Below, in pieces: positions 3,081-35,506 of a DNA stretch of 37,672 nt. Positions within the stretch are counted from its first letter, which is position 1. Each line of letters begins with the position of its first letter. The notes beneath the pieces are model-generated. The model searched no databases, was not told where the DNA came from, and saw nothing but the letters and a program-made list of their open reading frames with translations. The position numbers were made by a program, and so were the translations under genes. This DNA comes from a virus. The stretch covers positions 1 through 37,672 of the IMG/VR virus record IMGVR_UViG_3300031975_001008, one strand, 5' to 3'.

Positions 3081-3458
3081 ATGAAAATGAAAGATATTGT
3101 TAAAGAAGGAACACTAGACGACCTAGGCCTTAGAGGACATGGTGCTGAGCTAGATAACGATGAAAAGGATATAGGTAAAGGTTTTGAAAAAACTTCTATC
3201 TTTGATCAACTTGGAGCAGTGTTAGATACACGTACAGGCGATGATCCAATTACAACAGTACAGACTGATGATGGTAAAGAATTAAATGTAAGTCCAAGAC
3301 AGGCAGTTAATTTACGTAGACTTCTTACAGCAGAAGGTATGAAGCCGCAACTAAAATTACAATTTACAAAAGATATACAAATGAGTAATAACCTACATGA
3401 CTTCTTAGATGTGCATCCAGATAAGATGTCACAGGTGTTTATGAAAAAGTACATGTAA
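3081..3458 (+). CDS. Probable internal head protein, unknown function
   Basis: A 125-residue acidic protein starting MKMKDIVKEG, which resembles the capsid-targeting leaders of its neighbours (a short helix ending in Glu-Gly). No domain is recognised. A good ribosome-binding site (GGAGAG) precedes the ATG, ten bases after the ligase-like gene ends. The gene stops one base before the next start, consistent with one transcript for the head-protein block. The packaged-cargo role is inferred only from the N-terminus and neighbours. Confidence 0.7.
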   Translation: MKMKDIVKEGTLDDLGLRGHGAELDNDEKDIGKGFEKTSIFDQLGAVLDTRTGDDPITTVQTDDGKELNVSPRQAVNLRRLLTAEGMKPQLKLQFTKDIQMSNNLHDFLDVHPDKMSQVFMKKYM

Positions 3459-3459
3459 T

Positions 3460-4329
3460 ATGCAATTAGATTTTTTACAGCAACTCGAAGAAGCAAGGAT
3501 GACACGCAATGATCAAAGCGTAAAAGTTTTGACATATGCAGATTGTTGTGAAAGGCTATATCTAACACTGTTAATATTAGAACTACTAAAAAACTTTCCG
3601 AATGCTACAAGTGTTGTGCGTGATTACGCTCGTAAAACTCTTGACGTAAAGTATGAACGTTTCAAAATGAATAGTACAGACTTGTATAACTTCATATACT
3701 TTGTTACTGGTGACGAACGTGCATTAGGCAAGCTAAAAGATCCTGGAGCTGCAATGCGTTCAAGACAATCAACGACTCTCCCGTTAGATGCCTTGAAAGC
3801 ATATCTAAGATCTATCAGCAGTGGATCAACGCCTAATCCTACACAGTTATTTGTAAGATTAGAGAACGTTCTAAATGTATCAAACACTGACTATAAAACA
3901 ATTAGACGCAACGTAACAAATTGGAGTCAGCTTACTAATGACAAAAGACGAGTTATTGTAACTAAACTTCTCTATGCAACTAGAGCTAAACTAAGAAGCA
4001 GTGATATAATTGACGACCTAGAAAAGTTTGCAAGTCAACGTGATCTAGAAAGCAACTGGGTAAAAGATAACGAACCTACTATTAGTATGCCCGATATGAG
4101 TGCCGCTAGTAGAGATTATGTGTTCTATAGATATCTTGTAGGACCTGAAAATATTATGTTAGTAAAAGGTTTTTTACAACTAATGGCAGAAGGCAAACCT
4201 ATACCAAGTAATATGGTAAGAGCCATGCGGCCAGCGGTAAAAGCATTAGATGATATAGTTAGAGCAGGGCCTGCATACATAAGTATGTTTAGATCCATCC
4301 AAAATCGAGCCAAAAAGACCTTAAAGTAG
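3460..4329 (+). CDS. Probable internal virion protein, unknown function
   Basis: A 289-residue, helix-rich, basic protein. The N-terminus MQLDFLQQLEEARM looks like the other capsid-targeting leaders in this block, with LEEA as a possible head-protease site (hydrophobic-x-Glu before a small residue). The rest contains regular amphipathic helices and ends in a basic tail (KKTLK). No enzymatic motif is visible. It is the last gene before a 100-base leader that starts a new unit. A real gene judging by length and codon use; the function is unknown. Confidence 0.75.
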   Translation: MQLDFLQQLEEARMTRNDQSVKVLTYADCCERLYLTLLILELLKNFPNATSVVRDYARKTLDVKYERFKMNSTDLYNFIYFVTGDERALGKLKDPGAAMRSRQSTTLPLDALKAYLRSISSGSTPNPTQLFVRLENVLNVSNTDYKTIRRNVTNWSQLTNDKRRVIVTKLLYATRAKLRSSDIIDDLEKFASQRDLESNWVKDNEPTISMPDMSAASRDYVFYRYLVGPENIMLVKGFLQLMAEGKPIPSNMVRAMRPAVKALDDIVRAGPAYISMFRSIQNRAKKTLK

Positions 4330-11715: not shown

Positions 11716-13338
11716 GTGGCAGTCGTACAGATATCGCGTATACAAGTCCGAAGAGGACAAAAGAATGCAGGTGCAGGTTTACCGCAACTTTCAAGTGGTG
11801 AGCTAGGTTGGGCAATTGACAGTCGTGAATTATTCATAGGAAACGGCAGTGTTGCAGAAGGTTCGCCGGCAGTAGGTAACACAAAGATTCTTACTCAGTA
11901 TGATGATATTTTTAGTTTAGCTGATACCTATACATATCGCGTAGGAGACGGTTACCTACAAACAGGATCATCAAGTGCAAGTCCTATACAAAGAACATTG
12001 CAAGCAAGATTAGATGACATAGTAAGCATAAAATCATTTGGCCTTACTGGTATAGCCAGTGACGATGCAACAGCAGGATTACAACGAGCAGTTGATCAAT
12101 TATTTTTAAACAGTGCAACAAAAGCAAATGAATCAAGCAAGGTTGTTTTATATTTAGAACCAGGTATCTATTCAATAACTAGCACAATACATATTCCACC
12201 ACAGGCGAATATTATAGGTGCTGGACCTCGCAAAACTATTATACGTAACTCTGGTGCTGGCGCTATATTTGATACTGTTACAAGTTCTAGTACGCCAGGT
12301 GCACCAAATTATGCACCTACAAGTGTAACACAGTCTAAAAATTTACGCATTGAAAACCTTACACTAGATACTACAGCATCAAACACAGGTATAGATCTAC
12401 AAAGTTGTGAAGATAGTTACTTTTATAATATAGATGTTACCGGAGCTTGGACGCAGTCTAGCAGTTTAGTAGATGCTAATATTGGTATTAAAATGTCAAG
12501 TTACAGTGGCAGCGTAGAAACAAAAAATAACACATTCCAAAATGTTAGAGTTACAGGTTTTAGTTATGCTGTTGAATCTGTGTGGGATATCCATAATAAC
12601 ATATTTGATAAGTGTACTTTTGATACACTTGGATACGGAATTACATTTGGTAAAGGCATGACACTAGGAGGATCGGGTAAACTTACTGGTCCTTCAAAAA
12701 ATAGTGTATCAAATAGTACTTTTAATAAAGTAAACAAGCAAGCCATCTATATCGAGCAAGGCGAATACAATCATAGCCAATCGAACAAGTTCACAGATTG
12801 TGGCAACGAAGCAGGTACAGAAGGACAGCCTCAAACTAGTGTTATAAAATTTAATAAAAACAACAACAACAGTGACAGTGATTATTTCAGTAGAACAGAA
12901 TCACTATCTTATGACCAAGCAAATATTAATAATGTCGCATATATACCTGAAGTAGAAGGCAACAGTATATATACACAAGGTTATCACAGCGTTGTTAATA
13001 TAGGTCAAGGTACAAATGTTAAGACTTTTAGACTTCCAGGAAGTGAAAATCAGTCATATGACATTGATTACCTGATTACTGCTACCAACTTTGAAGCAGT
13101 ACGTAGTGGAACACTAACCATTACACAAGAAAACTTTGGAACTGCTGCTGTTACAGTCACTGACGATTATAACTATTCAGGAAATGCTTTATACGAAGAA
13201 GATATTATTTTTAATGCAACGTTAATTGATGAAAATTCGGACTTGACAAAAGAAACAATTTCTGTTAATATAACAAGTACAAACTTAATAGCAGAGATGA
13301 AATTCACAATCAGGTGTAAACAAAGTAACATAATCTAA
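11716..13338 (+). CDS. Fibre/baseplate protein with beta-helix
   Basis: 540 residues, starting at GTG (11716) after AGGAG. Residues 1-60 (SRIQVRRGQ, LSSGELGWAID, LFIGNG) match the N-terminal attachment domain shared by phage tropism determinants and T4-like fibre proteins. Residues about 110-400 read as a right-handed parallel beta-helix of the pectate-lyase type: the YLEPGIYSITSTIHIP opening, IIGAGPRKTII, then repeating short strands with Asn ladders. The C-terminal 100 residues are a separate beta domain. Probably a receptor-binding or polysaccharide-binding part of the tail; no catalytic residues are evident. Confidence 0.85.
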   Translation: MAVVQISRIQVRRGQKNAGAGLPQLSSGELGWAIDSRELFIGNGSVAEGSPAVGNTKILTQYDDIFSLADTYTYRVGDGYLQTGSSSASPIQRTLQARLDDIVSIKSFGLTGIASDDATAGLQRAVDQLFLNSATKANESSKVVLYLEPGIYSITSTIHIPPQANIIGAGPRKTIIRNSGAGAIFDTVTSSSTPGAPNYAPTSVTQSKNLRIENLTLDTTASNTGIDLQSCEDSYFYNIDVTGAWTQSSSLVDANIGIKMSSYSGSVETKNNTFQNVRVTGFSYAVESVWDIHNNIFDKCTFDTLGYGITFGKGMTLGGSGKLTGPSKNSVSNSTFNKVNKQAIYIEQGEYNHSQSNKFTDCGNEAGTEGQPQTSVIKFNKNNNNSDSDYFSRTESLSYDQANINNVAYIPEVEGNSIYTQGYHSVVNIGQGTNVKTFRLPGSENQSYDIDYLITATNFEAVRSGTLTITQENFGTAAVTVTDDYNYSGNALYEEDIIFNATLIDENSDLTKETISVNITSTNLIAEMKFTIRCKQSNII

Positions 13339-18590: not shown

Positions 18591-18824
18591 ATGATGTGGC
18601 TTGATTATACCATAGAACAGTTTGGCGACGACTTTTCAGTTAGAGGAGAGTGGCCAGGTGAAGTAATGGGATTAAGGAAAGATGGCACCTACAAAGGTAA
18701 TCATCTTTACAAACCTGGAGATGTCTTTGTCGTACAGCCAAACGGCATTCTCAAAAAAACAGACGACCTCTATGCTTTAATGATGAAGTATGAACAAAGT
18801 AAATTAAATGCAGAAAAAGGTTGA
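18591..18824 (+). CDS. Small conserved phage protein, unknown function
   Basis: A 77-residue protein rich in Gly, Trp and Tyr with a beta-strand pattern (YKPGDVFVVQPNG) and a helical, charged C-terminus. No domain is recognised. Its stop overlaps the -35 hexamer of the tmRNA promoter. It follows AAGGAG and a late-type box. Confidence 0.6.
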   Translation: MMWLDYTIEQFGDDFSVRGEWPGEVMGLRKDGTYKGNHLYKPGDVFVVQPNGILKKTDDLYALMMKYEQSKLNAEKG

Positions 18825-18851
18825 CACCTACCTTAAAAGACTGTATAAATA
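18821..18851 (+). promoter_or_regulatory. Promoter of the tmRNA gene, overlapping a late-type box
   Basis: TTGACA (18821-18826), 17-base spacer, TATAAA (18844-18849). The -10 lies inside TATAAATA (18844-18851), an exact T4 late box, so the RNA could be made both early and late. Confidence 0.8.
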
Positions 18852-18938
18852 TATATGTAACGTTGAAGCAATTTGACGACTGGACAGGACCCGGGGGCGG
18901 TACCCGGCGGCTCCACCATAAGCACATTTGGAGATACA

Positions 18939-19190
18939 GTGAAGACACGTATTAAAATGATTAGCGGCGATGAGTTTGATGCTCTAAGCAAAAAGGCTAA
19001 GAAATACTTTCATTGGAAACCAGGTGAACGTAAGAAGATTAAGCGTGGTTATAACAAAAGACTTCGCAAGTGTGCTTATGATGGGGCCGAAATAGGATCG
19101 ACTGACTGGATAGAAGAGTGGAGTTACCCGGATCTAAGCACGGTTATCGCGAAGAAAATTGATAATTGCAAACGCAAATTTCAAACCTGA
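18939..19190 (+). CDS. Small ORF inside the tmRNA intervening segment
   Basis: GTG at 18939 has a well-spaced GGAG (18930-18933), and the frame runs 83 residues to TGA at 19188. The first 48 codons fill the spacer between the CCA end and the mature tmRNA 5' end (VKTRIKMISGDEFDALS, then a Lys/Arg-rich helix). That part resembles a small phage protein beginning KTRIKxISGDE; function unknown. The rest crosses the 5' acceptor strand and ends within the tag-coding frame, so the protein C-terminus is constrained by the RNA. It may be a real gene with a readthrough tail. RNA processing would cut its message. Confidence 0.5.
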   Translation: MKTRIKMISGDEFDALSKKAKKYFHWKPGERKKIKRGYNKRLRKCAYDGAEIGSTDWIEEWSYPDLSTVIAKKIDNCKRKFQT

Positions 19191-19297
19191 AGCGTTTACA
19201 TCTTTAGACATGTCTATGGATAGTGAACTACTTGCAGCCTAAGCTGTAAACTTCGCGGTATGGTTCCACCGGGCAACAGGACGGGCCACTTAATTCA

Positions 19298-19317
19298 CTT
19301 TGTAGTTAACTACAAAG
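19298..19317 (+). other. Hairpin at the end of the tmRNA coding piece
   Basis: CTTTGTAG-TTAA-CTACAAAG, an 8-bp stem with a 4-base loop. It is probably the last helix of the coding RNA or a processing site; no T-run follows directly. Confidence 0.5.
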
Positions 19318-19324
19318 CGTAGGA

Positions 19325-19332
19325 GATAAATA
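19325..19332 (+). promoter_or_regulatory. Late-promoter-like box
   Basis: GATAAATA, 77 bases before the beta-barrel gene at 19409. Confidence 0.4.
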
Positions 19333-19349
19333 TTTCGCTGGGGGACAAG

Positions 19350-19380
19350 CCTTTGGCGTTTTTTTATATCGATATAAAAA
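19350..19380 (+). terminator. Possible terminator and AT palindrome
   Basis: A short GCC-TTT-GGC stem is followed by a run of seven T, a weak terminator for the tmRNA. The T-run enters a perfect 20-base AT-rich palindrome centred on ATCGAT (19361-19380). Confidence 0.4.
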
Positions 19381-19408: not shown

Positions 19409-19816
19409 ATGAATAAAATACTTATAGCAATTGCCGCTACGGCAATTCTAAGTACTACTGCTATGGCAGAAGACTTAGGATCAAATTTAGCTCTTAACAC
19501 AGAGCTAAAAGCATTTCATAAAGTTGATGCGGAAACAAACCACATCACTATTGAACCAGAATTACGTTGGACACCTGCTGCAGGACCACTATCGATTTGG
19601 GGCGAAGTTCCAATTACTGTGTATGAAACAGATCATGCATCAGGCGACGATCTTGCACTAATGAATGTACTAGACGATGGATCATATCCTGTACTAGAAT
19701 TAGGCTTTGATTATGCTGTTAATCCAACATCAGTTGTATACGGCGAAACAACATATGACTTCAACGGCGATAACGACCGTGGAGAAATTGAAGTAGGCGT
19801 AAAAATTAACTTCTAA
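19409..19816 (+). CDS. Small outer-membrane beta-barrel-like protein
   Basis: A 135-residue protein. Residues 1-20 are a signal peptide (KILIAIAATAILSTTAMA, cut before EDLG). The mature part alternates amphipathic strands (ELKAFHKVD, HITIEPELRW, LSIWGEVPITVYE, VVYGETTYDF, EIEVGVKINF) and ends in Phe, as most outer-membrane barrels do. About eight strands would fit. A phage-encoded outer-membrane protein could mask receptors or change permeability; the function is inferred. It has its own leader and a strong terminator, suggesting high expression. Confidence 0.75.
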   Translation: MNKILIAIAATAILSTTAMAEDLGSNLALNTELKAFHKVDAETNHITIEPELRWTPAAGPLSIWGEVPITVYETDHASGDDLALMNVLDDGSYPVLELGFDYAVNPTSVVYGETTYDFNGDNDRGEIEVGVKINF

Positions 19817-26388: not shown

Positions 26389-26976
26389 ATGGCAATGCAT
26401 ACGGAACTATGGTTCCCGCAAGTTATTTGGTCAGCAGTAATTCATATGGTTGATAATTATGAATTAAAGAACTGGGCCTATGAACGTAAGATGAACGACA
26501 TAGGCCGCAGGGTTACAAACTTTGGAGGATATCAAAGTGATGACATTCGAAAAGGTGTAAACCCACAGGTTGATAAATTAGTAGACTATTTAAATCAGGA
26601 AGTAAAAAACCTAACATTACAAGTTTCTTTACCTCAACTAGATGTCAAAAATATATGGTTAAACATTAATCCTCCGGGCAGTTATAACGAACTGCATACT
26701 CATGCAGGTGCAGTTCTTAGTGGAGTTTATTATGTTGATGCAACTGATAAACAAGGCAATATTCAATTTGAGAGATCAGATAACGCAGAATATCACTTGC
26801 CGGACTATATAGAAAAGATGAATTACTTTAATTCCACAAGAGCAACTTATGCCGCTAAGACCGGTGCATTATATATATTTCCTGGTTGGTTAAAGCATAG
26901 TGTGCAAGGAAATCAATCGCATACAGATAGGATCAGTATGTCTTTTAATTTTGGAGAGAAAACAAATGAGAATTGA
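26389..26976 (+). CDS. 2-oxoglutarate/Fe(II) oxygenase-like protein
   Basis: 195 residues. [18 protein letters not shown] (His103, His105), GNIQFERS, then FPGWLKHSV (His170) and DRISMSFNF (Arg181, likely 2-oxoglutarate binding) match the 2OG-FeII_Oxy_5 family common in marine phages. Substrate unknown; a protein or nucleic acid hydroxylase is possible. It starts directly after the bS21 stop. The guaC start lies in its last codons. Confidence 0.8.
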
Positions 26977-28147
26977 AGAAGATATGAAACTTGATTACAA
27001 GGATGTTCTTATTCGACCTAAACGTAGCACACTAGGAAGTAGAAAAGAAGTTGACCTAGAACGTGGATTTACTTTTCGAAACTACAAACCATATGTAGCA
27101 ACTGACGTGTTGCCAGATGGTTATCCAGTTGTACAAAAACAAGAACGACACTATCGTGGTACTCCTATTATGGCAAGTAACATGGATGGTGTTGGTACAT
27201 TTGAAATGGCAGATGTACTTGCTACTGGAGGTATTTTTACTTGTCTAGTCAAAACTTATAGTGTTAACGAACTTGTAGGTTACTTTGATCAAGATGATAG
27301 ATCACATGATCCAGCAAGAACAGAATATGTTGCGATGAGCATAGGAATTACAGATGCAGATCATCAAAAGTTTAGAAATGTATATGAGCAAACAGGCAGT
27401 AGACTGAAGTATGTTTGTATTGATGTAGCAAATGGTTATTCAGAACGATTTGCACAATTTGTAAAAGAATTTAGAAACCAGTATCCTAACATTGTTATTA
27501 TTGCAGGTAATGTAGTTACTGGTGAAATGACAGAGGAGTTAATTCTAAGTGGAGCAGATATTGTTAAAGTTGGTATTGGTCCTGGGAGTGTTTGCACTAC
27601 TCGTATCCAAACTGGTATTGGTTACCCTCAGCTTTCTGCTGTTATCGAATGTGCAGACGCAGCTCACGGTCTTGGCGGTCACGTTATCGCTGATGGCGGC
27701 TGTACTTGTCCTGGTGATGTGGCTAAAGCATTTGCTGGCGGTGCTGATTTCGTTATGCTGGGAGGAATGCTTGCCGGACACGACCAAGGCGGCGGCGAAG
27801 TAATTACAAAATATTATACTACAGGTGAGCAATGGTTTAAGCCAAACGATGAAACTTATCATCCAGTAGTAACGAATAAAAAGTTTGTACAGTTTTACGG
27901 CATGAGTAGTAACGCTGCAAACGAAAAGCATTTTGGTGGACTTAAAGACTACCGTTCATCAGAAGGCCGTGAAGTACTTGTTCCATATAGGGGCGATGTT
28001 GCGGCTACAGTGCAGGATTTACTAGGCGGATTGCGTAGTACTTGCACATATGCAGGCGCACTAAGGCTAAAGCACCTTATGCGTTGCACAACATTTGTAC
28101 GTTGCACTCAACAATTTAATAGTGTGTATGCGTCAAATGATAAATAA
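26966..28147 (+). CDS. guaC: GMP reductase
   Basis: 393 residues from the ATG at 26966, after GGAGAG; the frame is open further upstream but lies inside the oxygenase gene. [21 protein letters not shown] at the start, [17 protein letters not shown] with the catalytic Cys210, DGGC and [16 protein letters not shown] follow E. coli GuaC closely rather than IMP dehydrogenase; no CBS domains are present. It is about 45 residues longer than E. coli GuaC, with insertions near 41-65 and 300-330. It converts GMP to IMP with NADPH, feeding recycled guanine nucleotides into adenine synthesis. A GC-richer stretch spans about 27600-27790. Confidence 0.93.
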
Positions 28148-32179: not shown

Positions 32180-32644
32180 ATGAAATTACTAATTTTAATC
32201 ACGAGTTTTTTAATAGTTTGTTCAACAAGCGTTAGTGCTGAACTTACATGGGGTTTTAAATCGCCCGCATTCCATTATGGAAATGGTTATTCGTCACATG
32301 TTTTAAGTGTTGAACAACTACAACATAATAGAAAGCAAGATTTAGCAGATAAGGCAGACGCAGAGGCAAAGAGATTAGAACGTGAATTAGAAAATACTAC
32401 CCTAAACAAGTTTGTTAAAAACGTTGAGTCAAGAATTTACGCAACGTTAAGTAAGCAAATGGTAGATAGTATGTTCGCTGATTGTGGGAACAGTTGTGCA
32501 AACAGTGGAACAGCTGAAATCGAAGGCTCACAAATATCGTGGGTCAAAGACGCAACAACAGGAGCAATTACGCTAACTGTTATTGAAGAAGATGGAAGCA
32601 CTACAACTATCGAGATACCAGGATCAGGGAATTTTAACTTTTAA
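32180..32644 (+). CDS. csgF: Curli assembly factor CsgF
   Basis: 154 residues. Signal peptide 1-20, cut before ELTW. The mature N-terminus LTWGFKSPAFHYGNGYSSHVLS follows CsgF (TMTFQFRNPNFGG...), the segment that plugs the CsgG pore. The middle is helical (FVKNVESRIYATLSKQM), and the C-terminus (ISWVKDATTGAITLTVIEEDGSTTTIEIPG) matches the CsgF end. A Cys pair (CGNSC) is an addition relative to E. coli. AGGGAG precedes the ATG. It overlaps csgG by one base (TAATG). Confidence 0.92.
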   Translation: MKLLILITSFLIVCSTSVSAELTWGFKSPAFHYGNGYSSHVLSVEQLQHNRKQDLADKADAEAKRLERELENTTLNKFVKNVESRIYATLSKQMVDSMFADCGNSCANSGTAEIEGSQISWVKDATTGAITLTVIEEDGSTTTIEIPGSGNFNF

Positions 32645-33618
32645 TGAAACGTATATTAATCCTATTAGGCACACTACTAGCACTTGCAGGCTGTAGTAGC
32701 ACCATGCAACAGTCGCTGGAAATCAAAGAGAACGCAGGTCCTCCGAGAATACAACCAGCACCGTTAGCAGAACGTATGCTACAAGTTCCTGAGCTAGATG
32801 GCAAGAAAATGACAGTTGCAGTTTACAGTTTTCAAGATAAAACTGGACAACGTAAGCCAGCAGACAATATTGCTAATCTATCTAGTGCAGTAACACAAGG
32901 TGCAGAAGTTTGGGTTATAAAGGCATTATCAGAAGTAGGCAATGAAACCTGGTTCGAAGTAGTTGAACGTGTGGGAATGGACAATCTGATCAAAGAGAGA
33001 CAGCTGATCCGCAACACACGCCAAGCATATGAAAAAGATCTACCTAACGGTCCCCGCGAATTGAAACCAATGGTTTTCGCAGGATTAATATTAGAAGGCG
33101 GTATTATCGGATATGATAGTAACGTAGCTATAGGAGGAGTCGGAGCAAGGTATTTAGGAGTAGGCGCACAAACTGAATACAGAGTTGATACTGTAACAGT
33201 TGTTATGAGAGTAGTTAGTGTAAGTTCAGGCAAAGTATTATTGAGCATTGCGACAGAGAAGACAATAGCAAGTTCAAGGTCCGGAGCGGATATATTTAAG
33301 TTCCTTGATATGGGAACGAAGTTAATAGAGTCAGAAACAGGTTATTCTGTTAACGAACCAACAAATTATGCTGTGAGAGCAGCTATTGAAGCAGGCATAG
33401 TGCAGTTGGTTTATGAGGGTAAAAATAAAGGACTTTGGAAGTTCAAGGATAAAAAATACACAGGAGCCATACCAAAAGTAAGGCCTCTACCGATGAAGCA
33501 GGCTTTAAAAAAATGGCCAAATGATAGGCTATACTGCGACAAAGTAGATTTGTGTTATCCGGTAGCATCCAAAGATAACAACACGAGGGACAAAAATGAT
33601 AAGAAAGTACACCAATAG
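32644..33618 (+). CDS. csgG: Curli secretion pore CsgG
   Basis: 324 residues. Lipobox LAGC with Cys17. GIIGYDSNVAIGGVGARYLGVGAQTEYRVD, VVMRVVSVSSGKVL, TEKTIASS and the C-terminal GLWKFK follow E. coli CsgG, which forms a nine-subunit outer-membrane channel. The constriction loop differs: E. coli has Tyr-Pro-Ala-Ser-Asn-Phe, whereas here the aromatic positions are Ala/Asp and Leu with one residue inserted. A 45-residue tail follows GLWKFK. It overlaps the next gene by 23 bases. Confidence 0.95.
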   Translation: MKRILILLGTLLALAGCSSTMQQSLEIKENAGPPRIQPAPLAERMLQVPELDGKKMTVAVYSFQDKTGQRKPADNIANLSSAVTQGAEVWVIKALSEVGNETWFEVVERVGMDNLIKERQLIRNTRQAYEKDLPNGPRELKPMVFAGLILEGGIIGYDSNVAIGGVGARYLGVGAQTEYRVDTVTVVMRVVSVSSGKVLLSIATEKTIASSRSGADIFKFLDMGTKLIESETGYSVNEPTNYAVRAAIEAGIVQLVYEGKNKGLWKFKDKKYTGAIPKVRPLPMKQALKKWPNDRLYCDKVDLCYPVASKDNNTRDKNDKKVHQ

Positions 33619-34345: not shown

Positions 34346-35506
34346 ATGTCGATGGCTCCTAACAAGTACACATGGATTCTCCTCTTAGGTCTCATACTAA
34401 TTGCTATGCTGGCCAGGCCAGCTCATAGTAAAGTAGGTGAGATAGGACAGATCAAAGGATCTGGTGTGCTTGAACGTGAAGGTGACATTGTTATTGACGG
34501 TAATGCTGGCGTAGGTGTTCTAAGCATGGACGAAGCTGTTACAGCAAATGGTACTATGCGTATTGACTTTGTTGACGAAACAAGAGTTGAACTTACAGAA
34601 CAATCTAGACTAGTAATTGACGAGTTTGTATATGACCCTGCTAACGATATAGGATCGTTATCAATGAAGGCTTCTCTCGGTACAGTTCGTTATGCTAGTG
34701 GACAAATTGCTAAAAAATACAAGCAGAATGTAAAGATTAGAACACCTAGTGCAACTATCGGTGTACGTGGTACAGACTTTGTAATGGTTGTTGACGAAAT
34801 GGGCGGTAGTATGATCACATTGCTACCAAGTTGCGACACAGCTGGTATGTGTTATGTGGGCGAAATAGAAGTAATGACTGATGCTGGATTTGTTGTTCTT
34901 AATCAAGCGTTCCAAGCAACAGCAACAGTACATGGTATGCGTAAACCAACAACACCAGTAATATTAGATATTAACGAAGACATGATTAATAACCTACTTA
35001 TTTTACGTAAGCGTACACCTATTGATGAATACGCTGAAGAAGAAATGCAAAGACGTAGAAAATTAGCAGACTTTTTAGGTGTAGACTTCTTAGAGTTTGA
35101 CGGCTTAGATGGTGATGCTCTTAAAGATAGTATCGAAGGTATTTGGAAAACAGCACTAGACGAAACTGACTTTATGTTAGCTGATATGCTACATGACATG
35201 TTAGACAAACTTAATGAAGCACTAGCGGCATTATTCCAAGATGAACTTGCTAGACAAAACAAAAGACTATTAAGTAATGTGCCTCAGGTAGGTTTTGATC
35301 CTAATACACAAATTAGATTAGACTTAATAGAACCTTATTGGGTATGGCAACGTGAAGACTTTGAACAGGGCGGCTTTATAAGATTAAGGTTAAATAATCA
35401 GTACGACTATACACTAGACGTACAGCAAGGGGAGTTCTTTCTATATGACTATAGATTGGGTAGCGAAGGCACTAATAGTATTACTATTATTCAAACCAAC
35501 AACTAG
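34346..35506 (+). CDS. Periplasmic FecR-domain protein
   Basis: 386 residues. Signal/anchor segment 10-28. FecR-like domain about 40-200: MRIDFVDETRVELTEQSRLVIDEF, then the signature IRTPSATIGVRGTDF (131-145). A helical middle (220-310) and a C-terminal beta domain follow. The last residues (GTNSITIIQTNN) read like a curlin strand unit. FecR domains of this secreted type occur beside CHASE2 sensors and surface fibre proteins in bacteria. It starts four bases after curlin 1, with AAGGAATG as a site. Its 3' end overlaps the second curlin gene by 62 bases. Confidence 0.85.
   Translation: MSMAPNKYTWILLLGLILIAMLARPAHSKVGEIGQIKGSGVLEREGDIVIDGNAGVGVLSMDEAVTANGTMRIDFVDETRVELTEQSRLVIDEFVYDPANDIGSLSMKASLGTVRYASGQIAKKYKQNVKIRTPSATIGVRGTDFVMVVDEMGGSMITLLPSCDTAGMCYVGEIEVMTDAGFVVLNQAFQATATVHGMRKPTTPVILDINEDMINNLLILRKRTPIDEYAEEEMQRRRKLADFLGVDFLEFDGLDGDALKDSIEGIWKTALDETDFMLADMLHDMLDKLNEALAALFQDELARQNKRLLSNVPQVGFDPNTQIRLDLIEPYWVWQREDFEQGGFIRLRLNNQYDYTLDVQQGEFFLYDYRLGSEGTNSITIIQTNN

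Follow-up and report, generated by a model that had tools for sequence, protein, structure and literature searches.

The window analysed here, the whole 37,672-nucleotide stretch of the linear IMG/VR virus record IMGVR_UViG_3300031975_001008, contains a complete alpha-type circularly permuted two-piece tmRNA gene at positions 18821-19365, which confirms an observation of the initial annotation. All features described below lie on the plus strand. ARAGORN places a permuted tmRNA at 18826-19333, and the covariance-model check proposed with that observation gave a match to the Rfam alpha_tmRNA model (RF01849) at 18817-19290 with 100.5 bits against a cut-off of 50 (E 1.7e-26), along with a 386 nt match to the tmRNA_permuted model (RF04321) at 18857-19242 (90.3 bits, cut-off 47).

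It can be seen in the alignments to both models that the acceptor (3') piece occupies 18857-18918 and comprises the T arm, the 3' acceptor strand (18908-18914) and ACCA (18915-18918), with the CCA end at 18918 lying upstream of the mature 5' end at 19083. The 3' acceptor strand CGGCUCC pairs over 7 bp, including the alanine-type G-U, with the 5' acceptor strand GGGGCCG at 19083-19089; the order of the ends and this pairing had both been described initially and were borne out. As full acceptor pairing was a selection criterion for relatives, only two-sided variation counts as evidence for this stem, and compensatory changes of this kind were present at two pairs (A-U/G-C/U-A and G-C/C-G/A-U). 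Pairing of the T stem was not demanded during selection; the stem was paired in 46 of 46 distinct tmRNAs, with several pair types and two-sided changes.

The tag reading frame begins with an alanine resume codon and ends, as initially described, in a C-terminal SELLAA followed by TAA. ARAGORN gives the tag as ANFKPEAFTSLDMSMDSELLAA; however, the covariance-model alignment places the resume codon at GCA 19168, two codons before the ARAGORN start, and the tag ANANFKPEAFTSLDMSMDSELLAA, encoded with its TAA at 19168-19242, is the more likely one. Downstream of the coding piece there is a 20-nt perfect palindrome able to form a hairpin (19298-19317), whose counterpart in L012 and L013 is CTTTGCAGTTAACTGTAAAG, and an intrinsic terminator with a 9-bp stem and a T run (19336-19365). 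The sigma70-type promoter that had been noted, TTGACA-17 nt-TATAAATA at 18821-18851, was likewise substantiated: the window contains one match where 0.01 would be expected, and about 75 of the fetched loci each have a single copy of this element, preceding the tmRNA where checked. The exact late box TATAAATA reported alongside it is present, but it occurs three times in the window against 4.45 expected by chance, and therefore provides no evidence of a late promoter, which we reject.

The phage and the origin of its tmRNA

The NrdA protein of the window is closest to that of Pelagibacter phage Mosig (70.6%), and positions 32644-33618 encode a CsgG curli pore protein (Pfam E 1.4e-47), a gene reported for T4-like myophages of SAR11 and OM43 such as HTVC008M and Melnitz (PMC9004378). 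We infer that the window derives from a marine T4-like phage of the pelagimyophage or Melnitz-like kind, a statement about the kind of phage and not about its host. Other genes in the window encode an IMP dehydrogenase/GMP reductase domain protein (26900-28147; Pfam E 2.9e-67), possibly an auxiliary metabolic gene, a FecR-domain protein (34346-35506; Pfam E 9e-9) and a tail-fibre-like protein (11716-13338) with weak Mtd N-terminal and beta-helix matches under the Pfam cut-offs. Right behind the tmRNA terminator is a gene (19409-19816) that has no Pfam match and encodes an N-terminal signal-peptide-like stretch, MNKILIAIAATAILSTTAMA; similar signal-peptide ORFs also come after the tmRNA in L006 and L009.

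Two-piece phage tmRNAs, including that of phage Melnitz, have been published already: of 133 unique phage tmRNA structures, 53 were counted as probable two-piece tmRNAs, 50 of these from marine or aquatic samples (PMC9004378), and a phage permuted tmRNA alone is therefore not new. The initial annotation had pointed to an alphaproteobacterial or cyanobacterial source and had proposed a phylogeny against host ssrA. An alphaproteobacterial assignment stands as regards the type of tmRNA, but a recent acquisition from a host is not supported, because in a tree from a short alignment (257 columns, rough support) the phage copies mostly formed their own lineage apart from bacterial ssrA, the labels changing 3 times compared with about 32 times after shuffling. 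No gene for SmpB was found in this contig, so that host SmpB would have to serve. It is plausible that the tmRNA could exert control over ribosome rescue and proteolysis during infection, as had been suggested.

A protein gene between the two tmRNA pieces

The intervening segment (IVS) between the CCA end and the mature 5' end is 164 nt long (18919-19082) and its removal is expected at maturation. A protein gene in this segment was missed by the initial annotation, and the coding, exchangeable spacer is the most unusual part of the locus. The nested ORF has a Shine-Dalgarno (SD) sequence, GGAG, at 18930-18933 and starts with GTG at 18939; 48 codons lie within the IVS, and the frame there, MKTRIKMISGDEFDALSKKAKKYFHWKPGERKKIKRGYNKRLRKCAYD, is open up to the mature 5' end and past it. 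As there is no stop before 19083, the ORF continues into the mature coding piece, and on the unprocessed transcript it would end at TGA 19188-19190 and encode 83 amino acids (18939-19190). The expected RNase P cut at 19082/19083 coincides with a codon boundary of this ORF. No second copy of the spacer ORF was found elsewhere in the contig.

Relatives of the nested protein were found at 78 viral loci. The closest occupy the same position in other phage tmRNAs. Most others, spread over dozens of phages, stand alone as genes of about 47-79 amino acids that have a tail and a stop of their own; in 47 of 50 contigs with such a gene no permuted tmRNA was detected, many of these contigs being fragments. 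No relatives were found in cultured phages, and the same was true of three further nested families. The protein is small and basic and matches phrog_16066, a PHROGs family of unknown function. Its AlphaFold model consists of two helices (pLDDT 86), for which a PDB fold search gave no match, and Pfam, PHROGs and the fold search together detected no endonuclease, integrase or transposase domain. The family has a pN/pS of 0.30. Taken by themselves, the closest copies give a weak coding signal (the W-L002 pair has a dN/dS of 1.2 on 6 changes), the strong signal stemming from divergent pairs, and the conservation of KKIKRGYN among homologues is partly a search artefact because the search patterns included this peptide. 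Leaving expression aside, we conclude from these comparisons that the spacer of the window carries what is, by its coding conservation, a real protein gene.

Spacers of phage and bacterial tmRNAs

Two scans of IMG/VR with patterns blind to the spacer yielded 177 distinct permuted tmRNAs of phages as an unbiased sample. The spacer was at least 95 nt long in 64 of them, and in 38 of these long spacers a single SD-led ORF filled at least 70% of the length, compared with 1.64 filled spacers expected from a shuffled control (maximum 6) and 1 on the antisense strand; the other 26 had no such filling. Nested ORFs grouped into ten families of at least two members and about 13 singletons, and all ten families had pN/pS values of 0.15-0.47, indicating purifying selection. 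Of 57 nested ORFs, 30 stop inside the spacer and 27, that of the window among them, reach the mature 5' end without a stop, so stoplessness is not general and we reject a general selection for stop-less ORFs. A candidate tRNA gene was seen in the spacer of L146 only, with pairing that looks spurious. At positions 4657-4860 of L061 there is a different stop-less spacer frame, similar to a small ORF upstream of the tmRNA in L008 and L009.

Applied to bacterial genomes, the same pattern recovered 56 permuted tmRNAs, whose spacers measured 4-68 nt and lacked an ORF. Among the matches listed, all covariance-model hits from 176 Pelagibacterales genomes measured 181-189 nt, whereas the match in the window spans 386 nt, and among those listed from Alphaproteobacteria there were two long hits (L489 and L490), whose spacers of 115 and 165 nt had no ORF either. 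Apart from these spacers, the bacterial RF01849 tmRNAs resemble that of the window in gene order, acceptor stem, T arm and a tag ending in AA. Permuted tmRNAs are also present, unannotated in the GenBank records, in Erythrobacter phage vB_EliS-L02 and Rhodobacter phages RcXuper and RcRudolph (L486, L487 and L488), with spacers of 88, 109 and 98 nt that no SD-led ORF fills; the RcRudolph record has a hypothetical protein annotated across the tmRNA gene.

The closest described system is that of phage Melnitz (PMC9004378), likewise a T4-like marine phage with CsgG that has a permuted alpha-type tmRNA and a sigma70-type promoter. We found that its 142-nt SsrA spacer contains an unannotated stop-less SD-ORF with a GGAG-spaced ATG (MFKWLSKTRLVVITRDYFRERNRKADAKIPKYLSGTRSVYDG...), the ATG codon lying at 46096 of MZ577097 and the predicted peptide starting MFKWLSKTRLVVITRDYF...; this ORF resembles that of L446 and others. 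The nested protein families of Melnitz and the window differ, and a glutamine riboswitch follows the tmRNA of Melnitz, whereas none was found in the window at the Rfam cut-off. Both the Melnitz paper and its record annotate SsrA only, and a nested ORF or exchangeable spacer is undescribed there (PMC9004378). An earlier report of protein genes in phage tmRNA spacers was not found in the open-access literature, although subscription journals could hold one.

Comparison of the loci points to exchange of the spacer. Both flanks of the spacer are 97-100% identical between the window and L013 or L011, and in L011 the 5 kb leading up to the spacer match the window at 97%, yet the spacers are unrelated. 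Conversely, the L004 spacer is identical to that of the window at 162 of 164 positions (99%), with an identity of 0.72 in the coding piece, and the contigs L004, L006, L007 and L009 have nothing but the tmRNA locus in common with the window at the nucleotide level. In a second family (b), L169 and L464 have an identity of 0.95 in the spacer and 0.75 in the coding piece. Spacers that are 90-99% identical were found in otherwise unrelated phages. Most of these loci are metagenome contigs and chimeric assembly could mimic one exchange, but it hardly explains all of them, as seven different backbones, some from two metagenomes each, are involved. We conclude that the spacer, as read from these alignments, is exchanged as a unit. 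The slot may also capture neighbouring genes: family f is nested in L198 and L437, yet it is free-standing as gene 85 just upstream of the Melnitz tmRNA, which suggests such capture. Melnitz SsrA and gene 85 directly upstream are at 3193-3645 and 2989-3189 of L484 (MZ577097.1). Taken at the level of sequence, protein genes occur in the tmRNA spacers of many phages, in a slot that is swappable, and are not seen in the sampled bacterial versions.

Predicted folding of the precursor and possible roles of the nested gene

The IVS is closed by a stem with its 5' arm, TAAGCACA, at 18919-18926 and its partner, TGTGCTTA, at 19071-19078; among 46 distinct tmRNAs this stem is paired in 40-46, with changes on both sides, and it has a pairing probability of 1.0 in the window. 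In the full precursor the SD of the nested ORF is predicted to pair with the 3' end of the IVS. The mean unpaired value of the SD was 0.27 in the full precursor, against 0.44 in the nascent precursor and an equal 0.44 across 247 further phage ORFs (p 5e-6), these ORFs being mechanical calls and the p-value taking no account of kinship. Part of this occlusion arises because the nested start codon sits just 11-23 nt past the CCA. The predicted folding suggests that closing of the tRNA-like domain hides the SD, and that nested translation and tmRNA maturation may compete.

From known biology, RNase P is expected to generate the 5' end of such RNAs and tRNA 3'-processing the CCA end. On the reading that we consider probable, the window holds a functional-looking tmRNA gene of a marine T4-like phage whose spacer serves as a cassette slot, here occupied by a gene for a small basic protein. 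A single strong promoter would make the precursor; the nested protein would be translated from it, and host RNase P, together with enzymes that process tRNA 3' ends, would release both tmRNA pieces. Foreign DNA in the spacer would cost the tmRNA nothing because the spacer is excised from the RNA, and co-infecting phages could swap it by homologous recombination because the most conserved tmRNA sequences flank it. Once cleaved, the message of the window's nested ORF would lack a stop, and an RNA of this sort is a natural substrate of trans-translation.

Each of these features has a partial counterpart in a known system. A protein gene inside a segment removed from the tmRNA precursor is also found in tmRNA genes with self-splicing group I introns, which lie in the T loop and some of which carry homing endonuclease genes (PMC11915505). 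In contrast, the segment in the window sits between the CCA and the mature 5' end and is expected to be removed by tRNA-processing enzymes; cmscan matched no intron family in the window and no endonuclease was found, and we reject a group I intron or homing endonuclease here. The separate rescue-factor gene arfA, which has a nonstop mRNA (PMC10107115), is a coding sequence lacking its own stop within reach of trans-translation, as the nested ORF would be on a cleaved RNA, and Carsonella smpB, which runs into and abuts a one-piece ssrA, is a coding frame that enters tmRNA sequence (PMC4131195); unlike either, the ORF of the window is nested between both tmRNA pieces.

A potential explanation that gives the nested ORF another purpose is that it is a regulatory device, with a ribosome-binding site accessible only as long as the precursor has not folded. 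Translating ribosomes would then delay closure and RNase P cleavage, and the product of the excised nonstop spacer would be marked for destruction by this very tmRNA, which would feed back on tmRNA supply by an arfA-like logic. The predicted SD occlusion in the full precursor, the 27 stop-less ORFs and the codon boundary at the expected RNase P cut in the window are all consistent with this; however, the occlusion is due in part to the position of the start codon, 30 of the 57 ORFs stop in the spacer, and the conserved protein sequences indicate a useful product rather than merely a translated leader, so that we regard a regulatory device as rather unlikely. It is more doubtful still that the spacer is a minimal selfish cassette, spreading among phage tmRNA genes and made harmless, like an intron, by RNA processing, with a protein that aids its own spread or excludes competitors. 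Near-identical cassettes in otherwise unrelated phages, boundaries precisely at the processing sites and 8-bp inverted repeats at the ends would fit such an element. Against it, the protein resembles no endonuclease, integrase or transposase and has no structural match in the PDB, the end repeats form an RNA stem that is also present in ORF-less spacers, free-standing homologues exist in phages with no detected tmRNA, and ordinary recombination needs no more than the conserved flanks. That this is an ordinary phage permuted tmRNA with a fortuitous or decaying spacer ORF is very improbable: the tmRNA itself is of a known kind (PMC9004378) and 26 long spacers are unfilled, but the excess of filled spacers over the shuffled and antisense controls, the homologues outside tmRNAs and the low pN/pS in ten unrelated families all argue against it.

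The cassette slot may have wider consequences, which we put forward tentatively. On a reading that we regard as rather unlikely, phage permuted tmRNA genes would be general expression slots for small proteins, driven by recombination, in which cargo translation and tmRNA maturation exclude each other; the supply of ribosomes during infection would then set the ratio of cargo to rescue RNA, and stop-less cargo would be tagged by its own tmRNA. The idea of a coding slot is directly testable because cultured phage Melnitz carries a nested ORF. The spacers of permuted tmRNA genes have so far been treated as waste, and if phages use them as swappable coding slots driven by a promoter, small phage proteins have been missed by annotation. 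If true, this would be a new sort of nested gene, a protein encoded within the discarded part of a structured RNA. It would also give unrelated phages a route for exchanging small genes and might connect ribosome rescue with the making of phage proteins.
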